Below, piece after piece: positions 33,139-40,442 of a DNA stretch of 45,712 nucleotides. The number at the start of each line of letters is the position of its first letter. Position 1 is the first letter of the stretch. A model generated the notes under the pieces. That model was not told the origin of the DNA and searched no databases. It saw only the letters and a program-made list of their open reading frames with translations. The DNA is taken from positions 1 to 45,712 of the forward strand of contig NZ_WIAD01000048.1 in NCBI RefSeq assembly GCF_009618275.1, written 5' to 3'. The stretch is from Roseimaritima sediminicola (GTDB lineage Bacteria > Planctomycetota > Planctomycetia > Pirellulales > Pirellulaceae). The translations under genes and the position numbers were made by a program.

Positions 33139-34260
33139 ATGCAGACGGACTCGCAACGAACGCCGACGGTGACAACCTGGTTGCGGCTGACGATGGTGCC
33201 GGGGATCGGTCCGCGGATCCTGGCCGATTTGCTGGACTGCTTCGACACACCCGAAGCGGTGCTGGCCGCCGACAGCCGGCAACTGATGGGCGTGCCCGGC
33301 GTCGGCACCACACTGGCCCATCGCATCCGTCACGCGGCCGATCATGTGGACACCGAAGGCATCCAGGCCTGGTGCGAGCAGACCGGCACGACGATCCTGC
33401 TGCGCTGCGCGCCCGAGTACCCGCGGGCGCTCACCGAGCTGCGGGACGCGCCCCCGGTGCTGTTTTGCGGCGGCCACTTGCAGGCGCAAGACGCCCTGGC
33501 CGTCAGCATCGTCGGCACCCGCCACGCCACGATCTACGGTCGTCGTCAGGCCGAGCGTTTGGCTTATGGCTTGGCCCGAGCCGGCGTGACGATCGTCAGC
33601 GGGCTGGCTCGCGGGATCGATACGGCGGCCCACCGCGGCGCCTTGGATGCGGGCGGACGAACCATCGCGGTGCTGGGCGGCGGGCTGGGAAAGATCTATC
33701 CGCCGGAGAACGCCGAGTTGGCCGAAACCATCCGCGGCCACGGCGCCCTGCTCAGCGAGTACCGGCCGGACGCCGCGCCACGCGGAGGAATGTTTCCGCA
33801 GCGTAATCGCTTGATCAGCGGCCTCGCCATGGCCGTGATCGTCGTCGAAGCTCCGGACCGCAGCGGCGCGCTGATCACCGCCCGGCTGGCCGCCGAGCAG
33901 GGTCGGGACGTGTTCGTCGTCCCCGGCGGCGTCGACAGCCGCGCCTCCCGCGGTTGCCTGCAATTGATCCGCGACGGGGCCACGATGGTGCGCGGCCCCG
34001 AAGACGTGCTGGAGGATCTGGGCCCGGCGGTCGATAGCATTGAAACCGACTCCGGACACACCCTGCGAAACGGTTCGGAATTGTTGCTGAACGACCAGGA
34101 ACGGGCGGTCTTGCAGGCGATCGAGCCGCAGGCTACGGCGATCGACGCCGTCGTCGCCCGCAGCACCTTGCCAGTTCATCGTGTACTGGCGACGATTACG
34201 GTTCTGGAATCGCGCAAATTGGTCCGCCGGCTGAGTGGACAATACGTCGCCCGGGTTTGA
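33139..34260 (+). CDS. dprA: DNA-processing protein DprA
   Basis: A 373-residue cytoplasmic protein that loads RecA on incoming single-stranded DNA in natural transformation. An N-terminal helix-hairpin-helix-like part (VPGIGPRILADLLD and GVPGVGTTLAHRI) precedes the Rossmann-like core, with VSIVGTRHATIYGRRQAERL, IVSGLARGIDTAAHRGALDA, TIAVLGGGLGKIYPPEN, PRGGMFPQRNRLISGLA and VFVVPGGVDSRASRG. The C-terminal winged-helix-like domain is visible (LPVHRVLATITVLESRKLVR). The helicase gene follows 11 bases downstream, so the two are probably co-transcribed. No com pilus or ComEC genes are in the window. Confidence 0.95.
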   Translation: MQTDSQRTPTVTTWLRLTMVPGIGPRILADLLDCFDTPEAVLAADSRQLMGVPGVGTTLAHRIRHAADHVDTEGIQAWCEQTGTTILLRCAPEYPRALTELRDAPPVLFCGGHLQAQDALAVSIVGTRHATIYGRRQAERLAYGLARAGVTIVSGLARGIDTAAHRGALDAGGRTIAVLGGGLGKIYPPENAELAETIRGHGALLSEYRPDAAPRGGMFPQRNRLISGLAMAVIVVEAPDRSGALITARLAAEQGRDVFVVPGGVDSRASRGCLQLIRDGATMVRGPEDVLEDLGPAVDSIETDSGHTLRNGSELLLNDQERAVLQAIEPQATAIDAVVARSTLPVHRVLATITVLESRKLVRRLSGQYVARV

Positions 34261-34271
34261 CAGAAGGATGT

Positions 34272-36341
34272 ATGGTGACGCCACCCCTGGATGCCGCGGC
34301 AATTTTGGGCCCTGAGGGTCGCATTGCACAGCGCTTACAAAACTACGAACACCGCCCCCAGCAGATGGAGATGGCCGAGGCGGTCGCCGCTGCGCTGGCC
34401 GCGGGCAAGCACCTGATCGCCGAAGCCGGCACCGGAACGGGCAAGAGCTTTGCCTACCTCGTCCCGGCCATCCTGCATGCCACGGCCGACCAACATGACG
34501 ATTCGTCACCGTCCTCCAACCAGAACCCCGACAAAGCCAAACGGACACGGCGGGTCCTGATCAGCACCCACACGATCAGCCTGCAAGAACAGCTGATCAA
34601 CAAAGACCTGCCGATCCTGAACAGCGTTATTCCGCGCGAGTTTTCCGCCGTGCTGGTCAAAGGACGCGGCAATTATCTGTCGCTGCGGCGGATGCAAACG
34701 GCTCGCGCCCGCGCCACCCAGTTGATGGGCTTTGACCGCCAGATCCAGCAACTGCAAGCGATCGAACAATGGGCCAAGACCACCTCCGACGGCAGCCTCA
34801 GCACGCTGCCGGTGCGTCCCGACCGCGACGTCTGGGACGAGGTCCAAAGCGATTCGGGCAATTGCTTGGGCCGCAAGTGCAAGACGTACAAAGAGTGTTT
34901 TTATTTCAAAGCTCGCCGCCGCGCGACCGGCGCGCAGATCTTGATCGTCAACCACGCCCTGTTTTTCAGCGACCTGGCGCTGCGGCAACAGGGCGTCAGC
35001 ATCCTGCCCGATTACGACGCCGTGGTCCTGGACGAATGCCATACGATCGAAGCGGTCGCCGGCGACCACCTGGGCGTGCGCGTGACCAGCGGCCAAGTCG
35101 ATTACATCCTGAACAAGCTGTACAACGACCGTACGCAGAAAGGCCTGTTGGTCGCGCACGACCTGCAGGGCATGCAAAAGGAAGTCGAACAGTGTCGGCA
35201 CGCCTCGACCAATTACTTTGCCGACCTGCTGGACTGGCAGGAGCGTCACGGGGCCAGCAACGGGCGCGTCACCCAAGCCAAAGTCGTTCCCAACGCGGTC
35301 AGCAAGACGCTGGAGAAATTGGCCGGCCGTCTGCACAGCTACGGCCGCGATCTGAAGAACGAATCGGACGCCAAAGATTTTACCTCGGCCCACGACCGTT
35401 TGATGCTGTTGGCCGGTCAACTGCGCAGCTGGAACGAGCAGACCCTCGGCGCGGCGGTGTACTGGATGGAACGGACCCCCACCAGCCGCGGCTTGCCGCG
35501 GGTCACCCTGGCGGCCGCTCCGATCGACGTCGGCAGTGTGCTCCGCGAACAATTGTTCCAACCCAAAGAGGACGAGGAAATCTCACGCCCGCGGTCGGTG
35601 ATCCTGACCAGTGCGACGTTGGCCGTGGGCAAGGAACGAGACTTTTCCTTCTTTCGCTCGCGGGTCGGACTCAGCGGTGGCGGTTCGCTGCGCGTAGGCA
35701 GCCCGTTCGATTATTCCCAACAAGCCAAATTGACGCTGGTGACGGATCTGCCCGATCCTTCGGCCCAGCGCCAGGCTTTCGAGAAAGCTTTGCCGGCCCA
35801 GATCCAGCACTACATCGCCCAGACCGGCGGCCACGCCTTTGTGCTGTTTACCAGCTACGACCTGCTGCGGCGCTGCGCCTCGGCGTTGGTGCCGTGGTGC
35901 GGCCGCCAGGGGATGAACCTGTACAGCCAAGCCGGCGACCAAACCCGCACCCAGTTGCTAGACGCCTTCCGCAAGAATCCCCGCAGCGTCCTGTTCGGCA
36001 CCGACAGTTTTTGGCAGGGCGTCGATGTGCCGGGCGATGCCTTGCAAAACGTGATCATCACCAAGCTGCCGTTCAGTGTTCCCGATCATCCGCTGCTGCA
36101 AGCGCGCTTGGAAGCGATCCGCGAATCCGGTGGCAACCCATTTCGCGATTATCAATTGCCCGAAGCGGTGATCAAACTGCGACAGGGATTCGGGCGGTTG
36201 ATCCGCACGGCCACCGATTCGGGCATCGTGGTGATCCTGGACCCTCGGGTTCACAGCAAGCACTACGGCCGCACCTTCGTGCAGTCGTTGCCGACGATGG
36301 AAACGGTTCACGCCCGCGCCACCGATGCGATTCGGGTGTAG
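34272..36341 (+). CDS. DinG/XPD-like superfamily 2 DNA helicase
   Basis: A 689-residue ATP-dependent helicase, probably 5'-3' and active in repair or replication-conflict resolution. Walker A is AEAGTGTGKS (Lys58). The Walker B box is VVLDECH (254-257), a DECH variant of DEAH. Motif Ia is STHTISLQEQLI. C-terminal motifs include SATLA, GTDSFWQGVDVPGD and the arginine-finger segment QGFGRLIRTATDSG. In the Fe-S region Cys198, Cys203 and Cys209 (NCLGRKCKTYKEC) are kept. The first ligand position, usually Cys in the GRGNYLCLRR type, is Ser137 (GRGNYLSLRR). The ATG at 34272 has an AGAAGGA site just upstream. Bacillus DinG is an exonuclease; no such domain is present here. Confidence 0.88.
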   Translation: MVTPPLDAAAILGPEGRIAQRLQNYEHRPQQMEMAEAVAAALAAGKHLIAEAGTGTGKSFAYLVPAILHATADQHDDSSPSSNQNPDKAKRTRRVLISTHTISLQEQLINKDLPILNSVIPREFSAVLVKGRGNYLSLRRMQTARARATQLMGFDRQIQQLQAIEQWAKTTSDGSLSTLPVRPDRDVWDEVQSDSGNCLGRKCKTYKECFYFKARRRATGAQILIVNHALFFSDLALRQQGVSILPDYDAVVLDECHTIEAVAGDHLGVRVTSGQVDYILNKLYNDRTQKGLLVAHDLQGMQKEVEQCRHASTNYFADLLDWQERHGASNGRVTQAKVVPNAVSKTLEKLAGRLHSYGRDLKNESDAKDFTSAHDRLMLLAGQLRSWNEQTLGAAVYWMERTPTSRGLPRVTLAAAPIDVGSVLREQLFQPKEDEEISRPRSVILTSATLAVGKERDFSFFRSRVGLSGGGSLRVGSPFDYSQQAKLTLVTDLPDPSAQRQAFEKALPAQIQHYIAQTGGHAFVLFTSYDLLRRCASALVPWCGRQGMNLYSQAGDQTRTQLLDAFRKNPRSVLFGTDSFWQGVDVPGDALQNVIITKLPFSVPDHPLLQARLEAIRESGGNPFRDYQLPEAVIKLRQGFGRLIRTATDSGIVVILDPRVHSKHYGRTFVQSLPTMETVHARATDAIRV

Positions 36342-36344
36342 GAA

Positions 36345-37200
36345 GGCAGGCAGGAATCATTGCGGGCGCGGCGCACCCTTTCCCGGTGACCAGTGGAACG
36401 CTCGCGACCGGACTTGTGGCTAGCAATAGCGAGGCCATCCTCGATCGCGCGGCTGAAATAATCGAAAAAGCCAGTCCCCAATTGGTCCTGGTCCTCACTG
36501 TGCTATCGGATGTCATCAAAGACATCGGCCCGAAAGACTTGGGCGAAATGGCCGGGATGATTGTGTACGAAGTCATGTAGACGGTGCTATTTTCCGTGGT
36601 GACCGCGCCTCTCGGTGGGGCAGGAGGTGCCGCTCGGTTGGCGATAGCCCCCATCAAGGTCCTTCGCCATGCCGCCCAGATGGAAGCGTTTGCCAATCAC
36701 GCCACGACTCTGCTAAAATTAGCCGGTTACTTTGAAAATGCCGGCAATTTGGGAACGCTAGCAAAAGCTGGCAACACAAGTCGGATTGTCGATCTTGCAG
36801 ATGAAGCCAGCGATACCTTGCGCGGTGTCCAGGCTCCAAACAGTGCAGGGACTGTCATTGACTATCTCGTCCCGCAGGAGCTGCGAGGCAAGCCGTGAAT
36901 TGGCGTAGTAACAAGTTCTTCGGCCACACGTTCAATCAACACGGAGCAGGGCCGAAGATTACACGTCGGCTTACCGGACGCGTTGGAGGTACCGGACAGC
37001 CACAAGGTCAATGGCTCGATAATTAGCGTGCCGCCGAGTTCCTGAACGACCTGCCTGATATCGGAGAGGCGGCGACTGTTCGGATTCCGCAAGGTCTCGG
37101 TCGTGTGATAATGCCTGATGGATCGTTCGTTACTGCGGAATGGGCAAGAGTCGTTGTATCTCCGCCCGGCTTCCGTACCGCGTTCCCAGTCATCCCGTAA
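36345..37200 (+). pseudogene. Broken polymorphic-toxin C-terminal region
   Basis: Three pieces read as one decayed gene. Piece one (about 36345-36577, same frame as piece two) contains ILDRAAEIIEKASPQLVLVL and VIKDIGPKDLGEMAGMIVYE, a pretoxin-like helical region. A TAG (36578-36580) interrupts it; piece two (TVLFSVVTAPLGGAGGAARL onward) continues to a TGA at 36896. Piece three lies in another frame (from about 36898): FFGHTFNQHGAGPKITRRLT, GRVGGTGQPQGQWLDN, TAG at 37024-37026, then RAAEFLNDLPDIGEAATVRI and a finish at SPPGFRTAFPVIP with TAA at 37198-37200. The HxxxxHGAG...GRVGGTGQPQGQWLD pattern resembles nuclease-type toxin tips of RHS/CdiA-like proteins. Two stops and a frameshift make it non-functional as read. 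The 5' part of the parent toxin is missing. Base composition is less GC-rich than the neighbours. Confidence 0.65.
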
Positions 37201-37209
37201 GGAAGAAAC

Positions 37210-37722
37210 ATGTTTTGCAAACTACAAATTTCCGACGTGGAAAAAACTACGTTTCCGGCGGTGGAGTTCGACCCAGAATACGATGATGCTCGTTCGGTCA
37301 TCGCCTCGATCTGTGATGGACTCGATGAAGCTGGGACTGCGACATTTATCGTGTCTGGATTCGGAGACTCTGCTTGGCCTTTCGATGTCGCAACCGATTT
37401 AGTGACACTGATTGAACAGCTGCCAGAAGCCCTGACAGTTTTGGAATTGCGATCAGGCGAGTTCCGCATCGACTTTTACGAACAAGGAATCGAACGTCTG
37501 ATCTTCTTCAATTGCAGCGGCGATGTGACGGAGTTGCGGTGCCAATCACGGACGGATTGGGAGCCAAGCCCGAATGAAATGAGGGTGCGTTCAAGTGAAC
37601 TTGCGGCAATGTTGAGTGCGGTATACCGCCAGTTCATGAATGTTGCGATGGCAACGCCAATGCCTGATGCGGCTAGAAAAGCACTAACCGAGTGGGCGGT
37701 GATGCGAAACGTTGCCGCTTGA
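37210..37722 (+). CDS. Candidate orphan immunity protein
   Basis: An intact 170-residue cytoplasmic-looking protein beginning MFCKLQISDVEKTTFPAVEF, acidic in its first half, with no signal peptide or membrane segment. The ATG lies nine bases after the TAA of the toxin remnant, with a ribosome-binding site GGAAG (37201-37205) overlapping that junction: the usual toxin-then-immunity arrangement. The sequence mixes strands (TATFIVSGFGDSAW, EFRIDFYEQGIERLIFFNC) and C-terminal helices (ELAAMLSAVYRQFMN, AARKALTEWAVMR), a plan common among immunity proteins. I do not recognise the specific Imm family. Codon use is visibly less GC-rich than in dprA or lnt, which suggests horizontal acquisition. The immunity role is inferred from position. 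Confidence 0.65.
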   Translation: MFCKLQISDVEKTTFPAVEFDPEYDDARSVIASICDGLDEAGTATFIVSGFGDSAWPFDVATDLVTLIEQLPEALTVLELRSGEFRIDFYEQGIERLIFFNCSGDVTELRCQSRTDWEPSPNEMRVRSSELAAMLSAVYRQFMNVAMATPMPDAARKALTEWAVMRNVAA

Positions 37723-37979
37723 CTGACGCCTTGCGTTCTTCGCCGGTCGCGAAGCGACCGCGGCGACGATACGAAGTCGTCGCAGCCACGGGCCGGAAGC
37801 CCGCCACGCTGGATGACCGCGCACCGGAGCGATAGCGACCGAACGGAGGGAAGACGCAGCGACGAGGAACGAGGAGCGGAGACCGCACCGGAGTGACCGA
37901 GCCAATGCCGAGACCACCACGAGCCGACGAGGCGGGCGGATTGCACCGTGCCCTCAATCGAGGCAAGTTGCGTGCTACT
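37723..37979. other. G/C-rich non-coding patch with a row of short hairpins
   Basis: No supportable gene. Three successive hairpins are seen: GGTCGC/GCGACC with a GAA loop (37745-37759), CGACGA/TCGTCG with a 7-base loop (37764-37782), and CGGGC/GCCCG with a CGGAA loop (37789-37803). The rest is rich in CGACGAGGAACGAGGAGCGG-type purine runs. Overlapping frames on both strands look like shadow translation. Confidence 0.5.
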
Positions 37980-38297
37980 ATCTTTCACAAAAACGCCGAA
38001 GACTGGCGGTGGAGTTCGTTGTGGCGTTGGCTTCGCAAGCCCTAGCCCCCGCCGCCGCTGCTGTCTCCTTGGCTGTTGCCGCGCGGCTTCCCGGTTGGGT
38101 CAAGCGTGTCAACACGCCCCTTTCCGAGGGCGAACTGGCAGCCGTGCGTCTTTCGGCCCAGCGTGGCAACCCCTTGGGTGACGAAGGCTGGGTCGAGTCG
38201 ACGGCACGTCGACTTCACTTGGAATCACCGTTCGCCAAGAGGCCGACAGCGAGTTCGTTTTCCCAAGATGGACATCAAAGACGCCTGCCCCCTTTGA
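37980..38297 (+). pseudogene. REP-associated tyrosine transposase (RAYT), C-terminal remnant
   Basis: Reading across frames recovers the end of an IS200/IS605-like RAYT. FHKNAEDWRWSSLWRWLRKP (from about 37983) corresponds to the family's RAEDWPWSSL segment. After a frameshift near 38040, LPGWVKRVNTPLSEGELAAV and QRGNPLGDEGWVESTARRLH (about 38090-38225) match the usual WVxxVNxPxxxxELxxxRxxxxRGxPFGxxxWVxxTAxxLxLES block. After another frameshift near 38230, RSPRGRQRVRFPKMDIKDAC ends at a TGA (38295-38297), like the RPRGRPRK tail. The N-terminal part with the HUH and catalytic Tyr motifs is absent. REP-like GTAG hairpins follow at once, as expected for a RAYT locus. The family recognition is from memory of the consensus. 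Confidence 0.75.
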
Positions 38298-38361
38298 TTT
38301 GTCCGGACGGGTTTCCTGTGCGGAGACGACCTCGGTCGGAATCGCAGAGCGATTGATTGTG

Positions 38362-38534
38362 GTAGCCCCAAAGCGCGAGCCCGGGGGAACACCAACAAAC
38401 CATCCGAAAAGCCCTGGAAGGGCGACATGAGACCGTGCCAATATGCACGGGTGGCTACAGCAGTTCATGTCGTCCCTCCGGGACTTGCGCGCGGTGGTGG
38501 GGTGTCCGTACCCTGGGTTGGCACCCAGGGCTAC
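38362..38534. repeat. Cluster of REP-like hairpins
   Basis: The 38298-38633 stretch has no gene. It holds four palindromic units: GTAG-CCCC...GGGG (38362-38387); a long imperfect inverted repeat with AGCCCTGGAAGGGCGACATG near 38410-38429 facing TCATGTCGTCCCTCCGGGAC near 38465-38484; inside that, CCGTGC/GCACGG ending in CTAC (38433-38458, a minus-strand GTAG unit); and a perfect 8-bp stem CCCTGGGT/ACCCAGGG, loop TGGC (GCCA on the minus strand), ending in CTAC (38511-38534). Confidence 0.8.
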
Positions 38535-38633
38535 CACATGTCGCCACTGCCGTGGCTGCCACGCCGCAATTGCATCGGCCCTACAATGCTTCAGCAACCG
38601 ATGGGACATGCCGGAGTTGTTTCCGAACGGTTC

Positions 38634-40400
38634 CTAAAAAGAATCTGCCGCTCGCCGCCGCTGGACCAACCCGACAACTGCCAAGACCGCCACCACCAAG
38701 GCCAGCCCTCGCACCGGCCAGTCGCCGACACTTTGGTACCAACCCCAGCGCCCGTCGACCGTGGGCGTCGCCAGGATGTGACCGTGAGTGTTTTTCTCCA
38801 GCGACGCCACCATGCGTCCGCTGCCGTCGACCCACATGGTCGGCCCCGTGTTGGACGCCATCAACAACGGCCGCCGCGTGGCCACGGCCATGAACTGTGA
38901 ACAACGCTGGTGGTGCTCGAGAATGGGCGAACCGCCGAACCAGGCATCGTTGGTCAGGTTGACGATCACATCAGGCGGTGTGCCGTCGGCCGTCAACTCA
39001 CGCACCGCTCCGACGGTAACATGTTCGACGGCCGTTTCGAAACAGATGTTCGGGGCGATTGCCGTGCCCTGCAGATCAAATACTTTGGCCTGCTCGCCCG
39101 GCGTCACGCGAGGCAGGGCGGCCAACTGGTACAGCGCCGGGAACCATTCGAAAAACGGGATGTACTCGCCGAACATCACCAGATGCCGTTTGCCATACCA
39201 ATCCACCACGCGGCCATCGGGACCGACAAACACCGCCCCGCTATGGGTATGCGCACGCTCCGCAAAGCGCATCGTACTGCTGCCGACCAACAGCGATGGC
39301 GGCGTCGACCGAACGCCGGCAAAGGTCAATCGCCGCTGCACCTCGCCGGCGTTCTGCTGCCAGATTTCGGCATTGGTTTCGATGCGGGTGGCGAACTGTG
39401 CTTGGTCCATGGCCGCCTCCGCAGGAACCACCGCGTCGGGCTCGAGCATCATCCAGGGCAAGCCGCGGGTGAACATCGATTCGGGCCAGACCACCAGATC
39501 CACTTGCCGACCGCCGGCGGAGCGCATGGCGGCCTGCGACCCCTGAAGGTACGAGTCGAAGATTTCCGCCTGACGCGACGGCGTCATGATGTAGGTGACC
39601 GGTTCGTTGCGCTGGATCAACGCGACACGCACGCCCAACGGCCGAGCCTCCGCCGTCGCTTCGACCTGTCCCAATCGATAGCCACCGTAGACCAGCGTGC
39701 CGACGACCAACACGCCGGCGAAGGCGAAACCGCCAAAGCGAGCCAGCGGTCCGGGGGCCGGCCCTCCCCGGGCCTGAGAGCCCGACCCTCCCGCTGCGCT
39801 GGAGGGTGTTTTAATGGCGCGAGCGACCGCGGCGGCAACCGCGGCCAAGACAAAACTGACGGCATAGCTGCCCTGCAGATCCGCCACCTGGATCACCAGG
39901 GGAAGAGCCGCCTGGGAATGCCCCAGCAAACAGGCCGAGAAGCCCGTGAACGCGTAGCCGCGAATTAATTCCAGCCCAACCCAGACCGTGGGCACGACGA
40001 TGACCGCGGGGATGCGCAGCCGCAGGCCGACGCGTGTAACGCCCACGAACACCGGCACGTAAGCCCCCAGGTACACGCACAACGTGATCCAGCCCAGGAA
40101 CATGGCCGGATGCGCAAAGCACAGCCCGTACAGGGCGACCAGCCAGAACGCCGCGCCGCCCAGCCACAGCCACCCGACCTCACGCCGATTGGGCGCTTGC
40201 GGGGCCAGGGCCACCAGGGTCCACGGCCCGAGCGCCACCCAGCCCAGCGGCCACCACCCCAGCGGCTCCATCGCCGCCCACAACAGCGCCGCACCGGCCA
40301 GCGCCAAGTTGCGTACCGCCGGCCGCGCCCGGCGTGGCTTGTCGCTCACGTCCCCGGGTATGCTTGCCGGTTCCGGCGACGCCGCTTCGGAATCGTCCAT
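38634..40400 (-). CDS. lnt: Apolipoprotein N-acyltransferase
   Basis: A 588-residue inner-membrane enzyme that adds the third acyl chain to lipoproteins. The N-terminal half has about seven hydrophobic spans (from NLALAGAALLWAAMEPLGWW to VSFVLAAVAAAVARAI, plus a span near 225-245). The periplasmic nitrilase domain carries the catalytic triad Glu307 (VVWPESMF), Lys404 (GKRHLVMFGEYIPF) and Cys453 (APNICFETA). A last span and a basic tail (GLALVVAVLAVVGLVQRRRA) end the protein. A segment of about 18 residues (KTPSSAAGGSGSQARGG region, about 196-214) is encoded by a dispersed repeat and is absent from the usual family plan. The ATG at 40400 is 42 bases downstream of the pgm stop, so the pair is probably co-transcribed. 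Confidence 0.9.
   Translation of the reverse strand: MDDSEAASPEPASIPGDVSDKPRRARPAVRNLALAGAALLWAAMEPLGWWPLGWVALGPWTLVALAPQAPNRREVGWLWLGGAAFWLVALYGLCFAHPAMFLGWITLCVYLGAYVPVFVGVTRVGLRLRIPAVIVVPTVWVGLELIRGYAFTGFSACLLGHSQAALPLVIQVADLQGSYAVSFVLAAVAAAVARAIKTPSSAAGGSGSQARGGPAPGPLARFGGFAFAGVLVVGTLVYGGYRLGQVEATAEARPLGVRVALIQRNEPVTYIMTPSRQAEIFDSYLQGSQAAMRSAGGRQVDLVVWPESMFTRGLPWMMLEPDAVVPAEAAMDQAQFATRIETNAEIWQQNAGEVQRRLTFAGVRSTPPSLLVGSSTMRFAERAHTHSGAVFVGPDGRVVDWYGKRHLVMFGEYIPFFEWFPALYQLAALPRVTPGEQAKVFDLQGTAIAPNICFETAVEHVTVGAVRELTADGTPPDVIVNLTNDAWFGGSPILEHHQRCSQFMAVATRRPLLMASNTGPTMWVDGSGRMVASLEKNTHGHILATPTVDGRWGWYQSVGDWPVRGLALVVAVLAVVGLVQRRRAADSF
39760..39814 (-). repeat. Dispersed hairpin repeat inside lnt
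   Basis: On the minus strand it reads TTAAAACACCCTCCAGCGCA, then GCGGGAGGGTC and a second arm CGGGCTCTCAGGCCCGGGGA. The two-arm layout CACCCTCC...GGAGGGTC...GGGGAGGGC is the same as in the repeats at 27211-27253 and 27300-27342. It stays in frame and encodes a Ser/Gly/Pro-rich linker between membrane spans. Confidence 0.7.
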
Positions 40401-40442
40401 GATATGTTTCCTGTGCTCGCACGCTCGCCACAACGAGCCGAG

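Follow-up and report, generated by a model that had tools for sequence, protein, structure and literature searches.

A broken toxin tip beside an intact, predicted immunity gene

The window analysed here is the whole 45,712-nucleotide stretch of Roseimaritima sediminicola contig NZ_WIAD01000048.1, in which four open pieces of a putative toxin remnant and a whole gene of 170 codons, a predicted immunity gene, lie between dinG and lnt (Table 1). A profile of seven toxin tips from other genomes picks out positions 36898-37191, which contain one TAG, at E 2.9e-39. The other matches of this profile in the same genome reached only E 0.31 and 0.92, so the homology in the window is beyond chance, and we found no convincing second copy of the tip. 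The last two pieces cover the whole tip length in the alignment and retain 25 of the 27 invariant tip columns. The window tip can no longer be produced whole. An earlier sequence-only reading had joined three pieces into a protein-like C-terminus, interrupted by TAG 36578, a TGA with frame change at 36896 and TAG 37024. These stops lie where it placed them; there are, however, four pieces, and the tip homology is confined to the last two. At the TGA (36896-36898) the reading moves from frame 2 into frame 1, precisely where this homology sets in, and pieces 1 and 2 (36344-36895) may therefore never have belonged to the tip protein. Neither matches a family in Pfam, NCBIfam or PADLOC. A search of 392 phylum genomes and a plasmid collection, made with piece 2, gave no credible relative. 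No RHS core was seen in the insert.

Nine bases separate the TAA of the tip from the ATG of the 170-codon gene at 37210, which, as the same reading held, is intact and has a likely ribosome-binding site of its own. One pattern-seeded scan of species genomes, with 56 pattern-matching stretches, yielded eleven relatives of the 170-residue protein. Their hosts are three Paenibacillus, Cohnella, Anaeromicropila, Polaromonas, a Burkholderiales assembly, a gammaproteobacterial assembly, Andreprevotia, Pseudomonas putida and Sorangium. The window protein keeps all 20 columns that are invariant among the other eleven, and the core motif of the family is DFYEQGIE. Searches of Pfam and NCBIfam with this protein (P0005) and five of the eleven relatives gave weak unrelated matches and no named Imm family; for the window protein there was also no credible PADLOC match, and no convincing second copy of its gene was found elsewhere in the genome.

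Table 1. Positions of the toxin remnant, the immunity gene and the surrounding features in the window
Feature	Position	Strand	Evidence
Gene for a dinG-type helicase, left flank	34257..36341	+	Pfam Helicase_C_2 E 1.1e-44; 86% identity to same-genus genome G392
dinG-lnt insert, with the toxin remnant, the immunity gene, a transposase remnant and a dispersed repeat	36342..38633	.	Shorter dinG-lnt gap in G392 and G394; lower GC3 of toxin pieces and immunity gene
Open piece 1, 78 codons, frame 2, no family assignment	36344..36577	+	TAG 36578-36580 at end
Open piece 2, 105 codons, frame 2, no family assignment	36581..36895	+	TGA 36896-36898 at end
N-terminal piece of toxin tip (NWRS...QGQWLDN), frame 1	36898..37023	+	TAG 37024-37026 at end; aligned with 7 tips from other genomes
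C-terminal piece of toxin tip (RAAEFL...FRTAFPVIP), frame 1	37027..37197, then TAA 37198-37200	+	Aligned with 7 tips from other genomes
Likely ribosome-binding site AAGGAAG	37199..37205	+	Sequence itself
Intact immunity gene, 170 codons	37210..37722	+	11 relatives, 24-37% identity; directly 3' of tip in 7
Decayed, internally deleted, frame-broken copy of a Y1-type transposase	37895..38300	+	88-91% DNA identity to copies on the genome's own contigs C110 and C97
Dispersed repeat with Acido-Lenti-1 RNA-like motif (38511-38557)	38340..38560	.	Motif 35.6 bits against a gathering threshold of 37
lnt (apolipoprotein N-acyltransferase), right flank	38634..40433	-	Pfam LNT_N E 7.1e-22

Tips and immunity genes adjoin in other bacteria

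In seven of the eleven relatives (L003, L004, L005, L006, L007, L011 and L012) the open frame directly upstream of the immunity gene ends in a tip of about 100 residues, with the consensus NWKS..FGHTF..HG...QGQWLNN...GLGQVI...KTAYPI, and the two genes are spaced by 1-37 nucleotides, against nine in the window. In an eighth, from P. putida (L009), a single frame of 134 codons runs from an RHS repeat into a tip stub of 24 C-terminal residues (E 0.0016, small search), with an intact immunity gene downstream. The DNA examined for L002, L008 and L010, which upstream of L010 covered only about 0.5 kb, showed no tip remnant. In the whole genomes of these three and of L009 no tip passed an E-value limit of 0.01 (0/4), the L009 stub falling short of it and some of the assemblies possibly being incomplete. 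Because the immunity genes had led to these seven tips, the count of adjacent pairs is biased; an Oscillatoria plasmid provides an independent check of the pairing. In a collection of 72,556 plasmid records the tip and immunity queries each matched one record, this same plasmid, where the two genes adjoin. All eight open-frame tips seen, the plasmid tip included, have an adjoining immunity gene. The association of the 170-residue protein's homologues with toxin tips, anticipated from the letters alone, was thus borne out.

The window and L005 have tips that are 68% identical and immunity proteins that are 34% identical, against 41-51% for the immunity proteins of intact pairs whose tips are 65-75% alike. 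Comparisons with L007 (tip 60%, immunity 35%) and L004 (56% and 35%) fall in the usual range, and the single L005 comparison gives a hint that the window immunity gene may have changed faster. In Sorangium (L011, 2463-5927) the tip is in another frame than the RHS core and lacks its TAYP end, and the immunity gene starts one base after it; this is perhaps another decaying toxin.

Carriers and class of the system

In the relatives L003, L004, L005, L006, L007, L012 and L036 the tip forms the C-terminus of an RHS/HINT protein, whereas the window holds the tip only. We found RHS_repeat in the frames of L004, L005, L007, L012 and L036 and PT-HINT in those of L003, L006 and L036, with an additional subtilase domain in L012; the L011 tip frame had no Pfam match. 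The same tip therefore rides on different cores, namely RHS, RHS with a subtilase domain, RHS with HINT, and HINT. These carriers are not all whole, as L006 begins at a contig end and the L003 frame has 517 residues. Judged from these homologies, the window pair would be a cassette of an RHS/HINT-type polymorphic toxin-immunity system that sits without its delivery core. The first reading placed the tip against the background of RHS/CdiA-type toxins; no RHS core is seen in the insert, and the pieces show no VENN motif. We also considered membership of the contact-dependent growth inhibition (CDI) class, CdiA-CT/CdiI. The translated window pieces contain no VENN, the eight carrier frames are RHS/HINT or have no assignment, and no whole-genome search for CdiB was made; we did not assign the pair to this class.

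Five of the eight tips were scanned and had no Pfam or NCBIfam match beyond two weak unrelated ones. The tip and immunity families are thus unnamed in these libraries and, for the window's own proteins, in PADLOC; the literature was compared by words only. The suggestion that both may be undescribed holds as far as these libraries go. The genome has RHS genes of its own on contigs C162, C172, C5 and C2. On C162 (4515-13866, minus strand; L047) three successive RHS frames with different C-termini form a tandem RHS array.

Distribution of the two families

The immunity profile matched four of 392 phylum genomes, namely that of the window and three from a single other genus, which are distant (E 1e-17 to 1e-18) and have no tip within 1.5 kb on either side. 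The tip profile matched two, the window and one weak fragment. Among 104 genomes of the family to which the L012 host belongs, immunity genes occur in five and tips in three (E 1e-5), two being L003 and L012. Genome G487 has RHS-like sequence, as judged by eye, and an open immunity frame beside a tip that is split across two frames; in G478 the immunity gene occurs without a tip, and G480 has just the last 68 positions of an immunity gene. Three unrelated hosts, those of the window, L009 and G487, thus combine a broken tip with an adjoining immunity gene that is whole. No relative was found in viral contigs, and phages gave no relative of the immunity protein. Two further loci, L030 and L031, carry distant immunity relatives amid other small genes that by eye resemble an immunity-gene cluster.

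Setting of the insert

The left-hand flanking gene, which we take to be dinG, is separated from lnt by 2.3 kb in the window, against about 0.4 kb in G392 and 0.1 kb in G394. Because dinG is followed directly by lnt in these two of the three same-genus genomes, the toxin-immunity stretch is most simply read as an insertion; in the compared stretch of the third, lnt was not seen after dinG. The GC content at third codon positions (GC3) is 0.49-0.67 in the four toxin pieces and 0.53 in the 170-codon gene. The neighbouring genes dprA, dinG, lnt and pgm reach 0.77-0.82, in keeping with the lower GC first remarked on.

The transposase remnant, presumably RAYT-like, has two frames in the window without a Pfam match, and two frames of the copies on C110 match Y1_Tnp (E 2.2e-13 and 1.6e-14). 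At the end of C162 one further copy of the transposase tail shares an open frame with RHS repeats, which follow it closely. Scoring 150 of 1679 candidates gave the Acido-Lenti-1 family at least 112 matches in the genome, at least 103 of them above cut-off; 14 control genomes gave none. ARAGORN predicts a tRNA-Gly at 37740-37834 on the minus strand, without Rfam support.

Probable orphan immunity and its alternatives

The tip and the 170-residue protein are homologous to pairs that stand side by side elsewhere; the tip is interrupted and the immunity frame is whole. The initial observation is confirmed and its interpretation as a toxin-immunity pair supported. We consider it probable that the locus is an RHS/HINT-type cassette with a broken tip, and that the leftover gene is orphan immunity if it is expressed. 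The cassette would sit without a delivery core in the dinG-lnt insert. An intact tip would be a metal-independent ribonuclease (RNase) with an RNase A/BECR-like fold, which RHS-type proteins would deliver into neighbouring bacteria, and the 170-residue protein would bind it and block its active site. If expressed, the leftover gene would then protect against competitors still armed with a tip of this kind. The part of PMC10539506 drawn on here reports that orphan immunity protects in Serratia, and that of PMC3150448 that E. coli EC93 produces an orphan CdiI. A wider picture, which we hold tentatively and give somewhat less than an even chance, is that of an undescribed family pair found in Gram-positive as well as Gram-negative hosts. 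Its tip would be RNase A-like and its immunity protein would have a fold new to such proteins; the toxin half would be lost again and again, and the immunity half would persist as portable protection.

The loss of the tip, as first proposed, agrees with its interrupted frame; retained protection is conditional on the gene not being a neutral relic, whole just through too little time and of no benefit. Such a relic is unlikely in our view. At the break rate of the pieces (three in 283 codons) a 170-codon frame would remain unbroken with a probability of 0.165, and the tip's well-kept invariant columns, the decaying immunity gene of G480 and the decayed transposase in the same insert are all compatible with it. 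It fits less well with the full set of columns invariant in eleven distant relatives, with the equal end state in two unrelated lineages and with the frequency of immunity genes that have no detectable tip in the genome or nearby. That selection keeps the protection in the window is a possibility favoured by the retention of all invariant residues and by the repeated finding of immunity without toxin. Sequencing or assembly errors in a tip that is really intact are very improbable. The assembly has 185 contigs and the tip has drifted little, but three breaks lie inside 450 bases (36578-37026) while dprA, dinG, lnt and pgm, the four flanking genes examined, are open over kilobases, and an unbroken tip would still have no core.

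It is also possible, though we think it somewhat unlikely, that the insert never coded a whole toxin and instead kept a module in store that could recombine onto an RHS core. As a reading of origin it overlaps with orphan immunity, and the two are not exclusive. The lack of a visible core, the frame shift exactly at the start of the tip and the other RHS genes of the genome would agree with such a reservoir, as would the orphan CT/immunity modules without start signals described in the portion of PMC3150448 consulted. The TAG within the tip would, however, spoil a stored module, and a shared core sequence to steer recombination was not found, piece 2 having no credible relatives. A role of the 170-residue protein as an accessory of the tip, an activator or chaperone, seems hardly probable: its fold match is weak and its immunity role is predicted, but it stands immediately after the tip and often survives where no tip is detected, both of which fit immunity and not an accessory. 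The analysis adds a toxin-immunity pair unnamed in the scanned libraries, the activity of which is easily testable, and the three broken tips beside open immunity genes, with several tipless immunity genes, form a set for asking whether selection or lagging decay leaves immunity behind.

Relation to known systems

Across the seven tips His10, His15 and Arg28 are invariant and Thr93 is present in six, as positions of a sequence alignment not superposed on the RNase A-like active site of His, Arg, Thr and Tyr. RNAse_A_bac is the Pfam model for the bacterial RNase A-like branch, and the five tips scanned gave no match to that family. The carriers of MafB2-CT and YxiD differ from those of the present tip. 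Comparison with MafB2-CT of Neisseria meningitidis MGI-2 (PDB 8hhj) and the YxiD tip of Bacillus subtilis (PDB 9v8i) gave middling Z scores at 16-18% identity. For CdiA-CT of Yersinia kristensenii (PDB 5e3e), from the bacterial branch of the RNase A superfamily, we found no sequence match to the window tip family; the carriers here are RHS/HINT rather than CdiA, and the Tyr is replaced by Phe in two of the seven tips.

Detached tip-immunity modules are already well described, and the new part would be a family pair unnamed in the libraries searched. The orphan cdiA-CT/cdiI and rhs-CT/rhsI modules, as treated in the relevant part of PMC3150448, likewise consist of a detached tip without core or start signals and an immunity gene directly next to it, and several were struck by insertion sequence or transposon genes, a further likeness. 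Unlike those modules, the window tip is interrupted by a stop, shows no VENN and lies alone between housekeeping genes, not behind a main toxin gene. In Serratia marcescens Db10, SMDB11_2280, an orphan immunity to an Rhs NADase, differs in its unrelated toxin activity and its place in a type VI secretion system cluster rather than a lone insert, going by the portion of PMC10539506 used here. As in the window, the toxin is missing from the same genome, and in that strain protection against rivals was shown.
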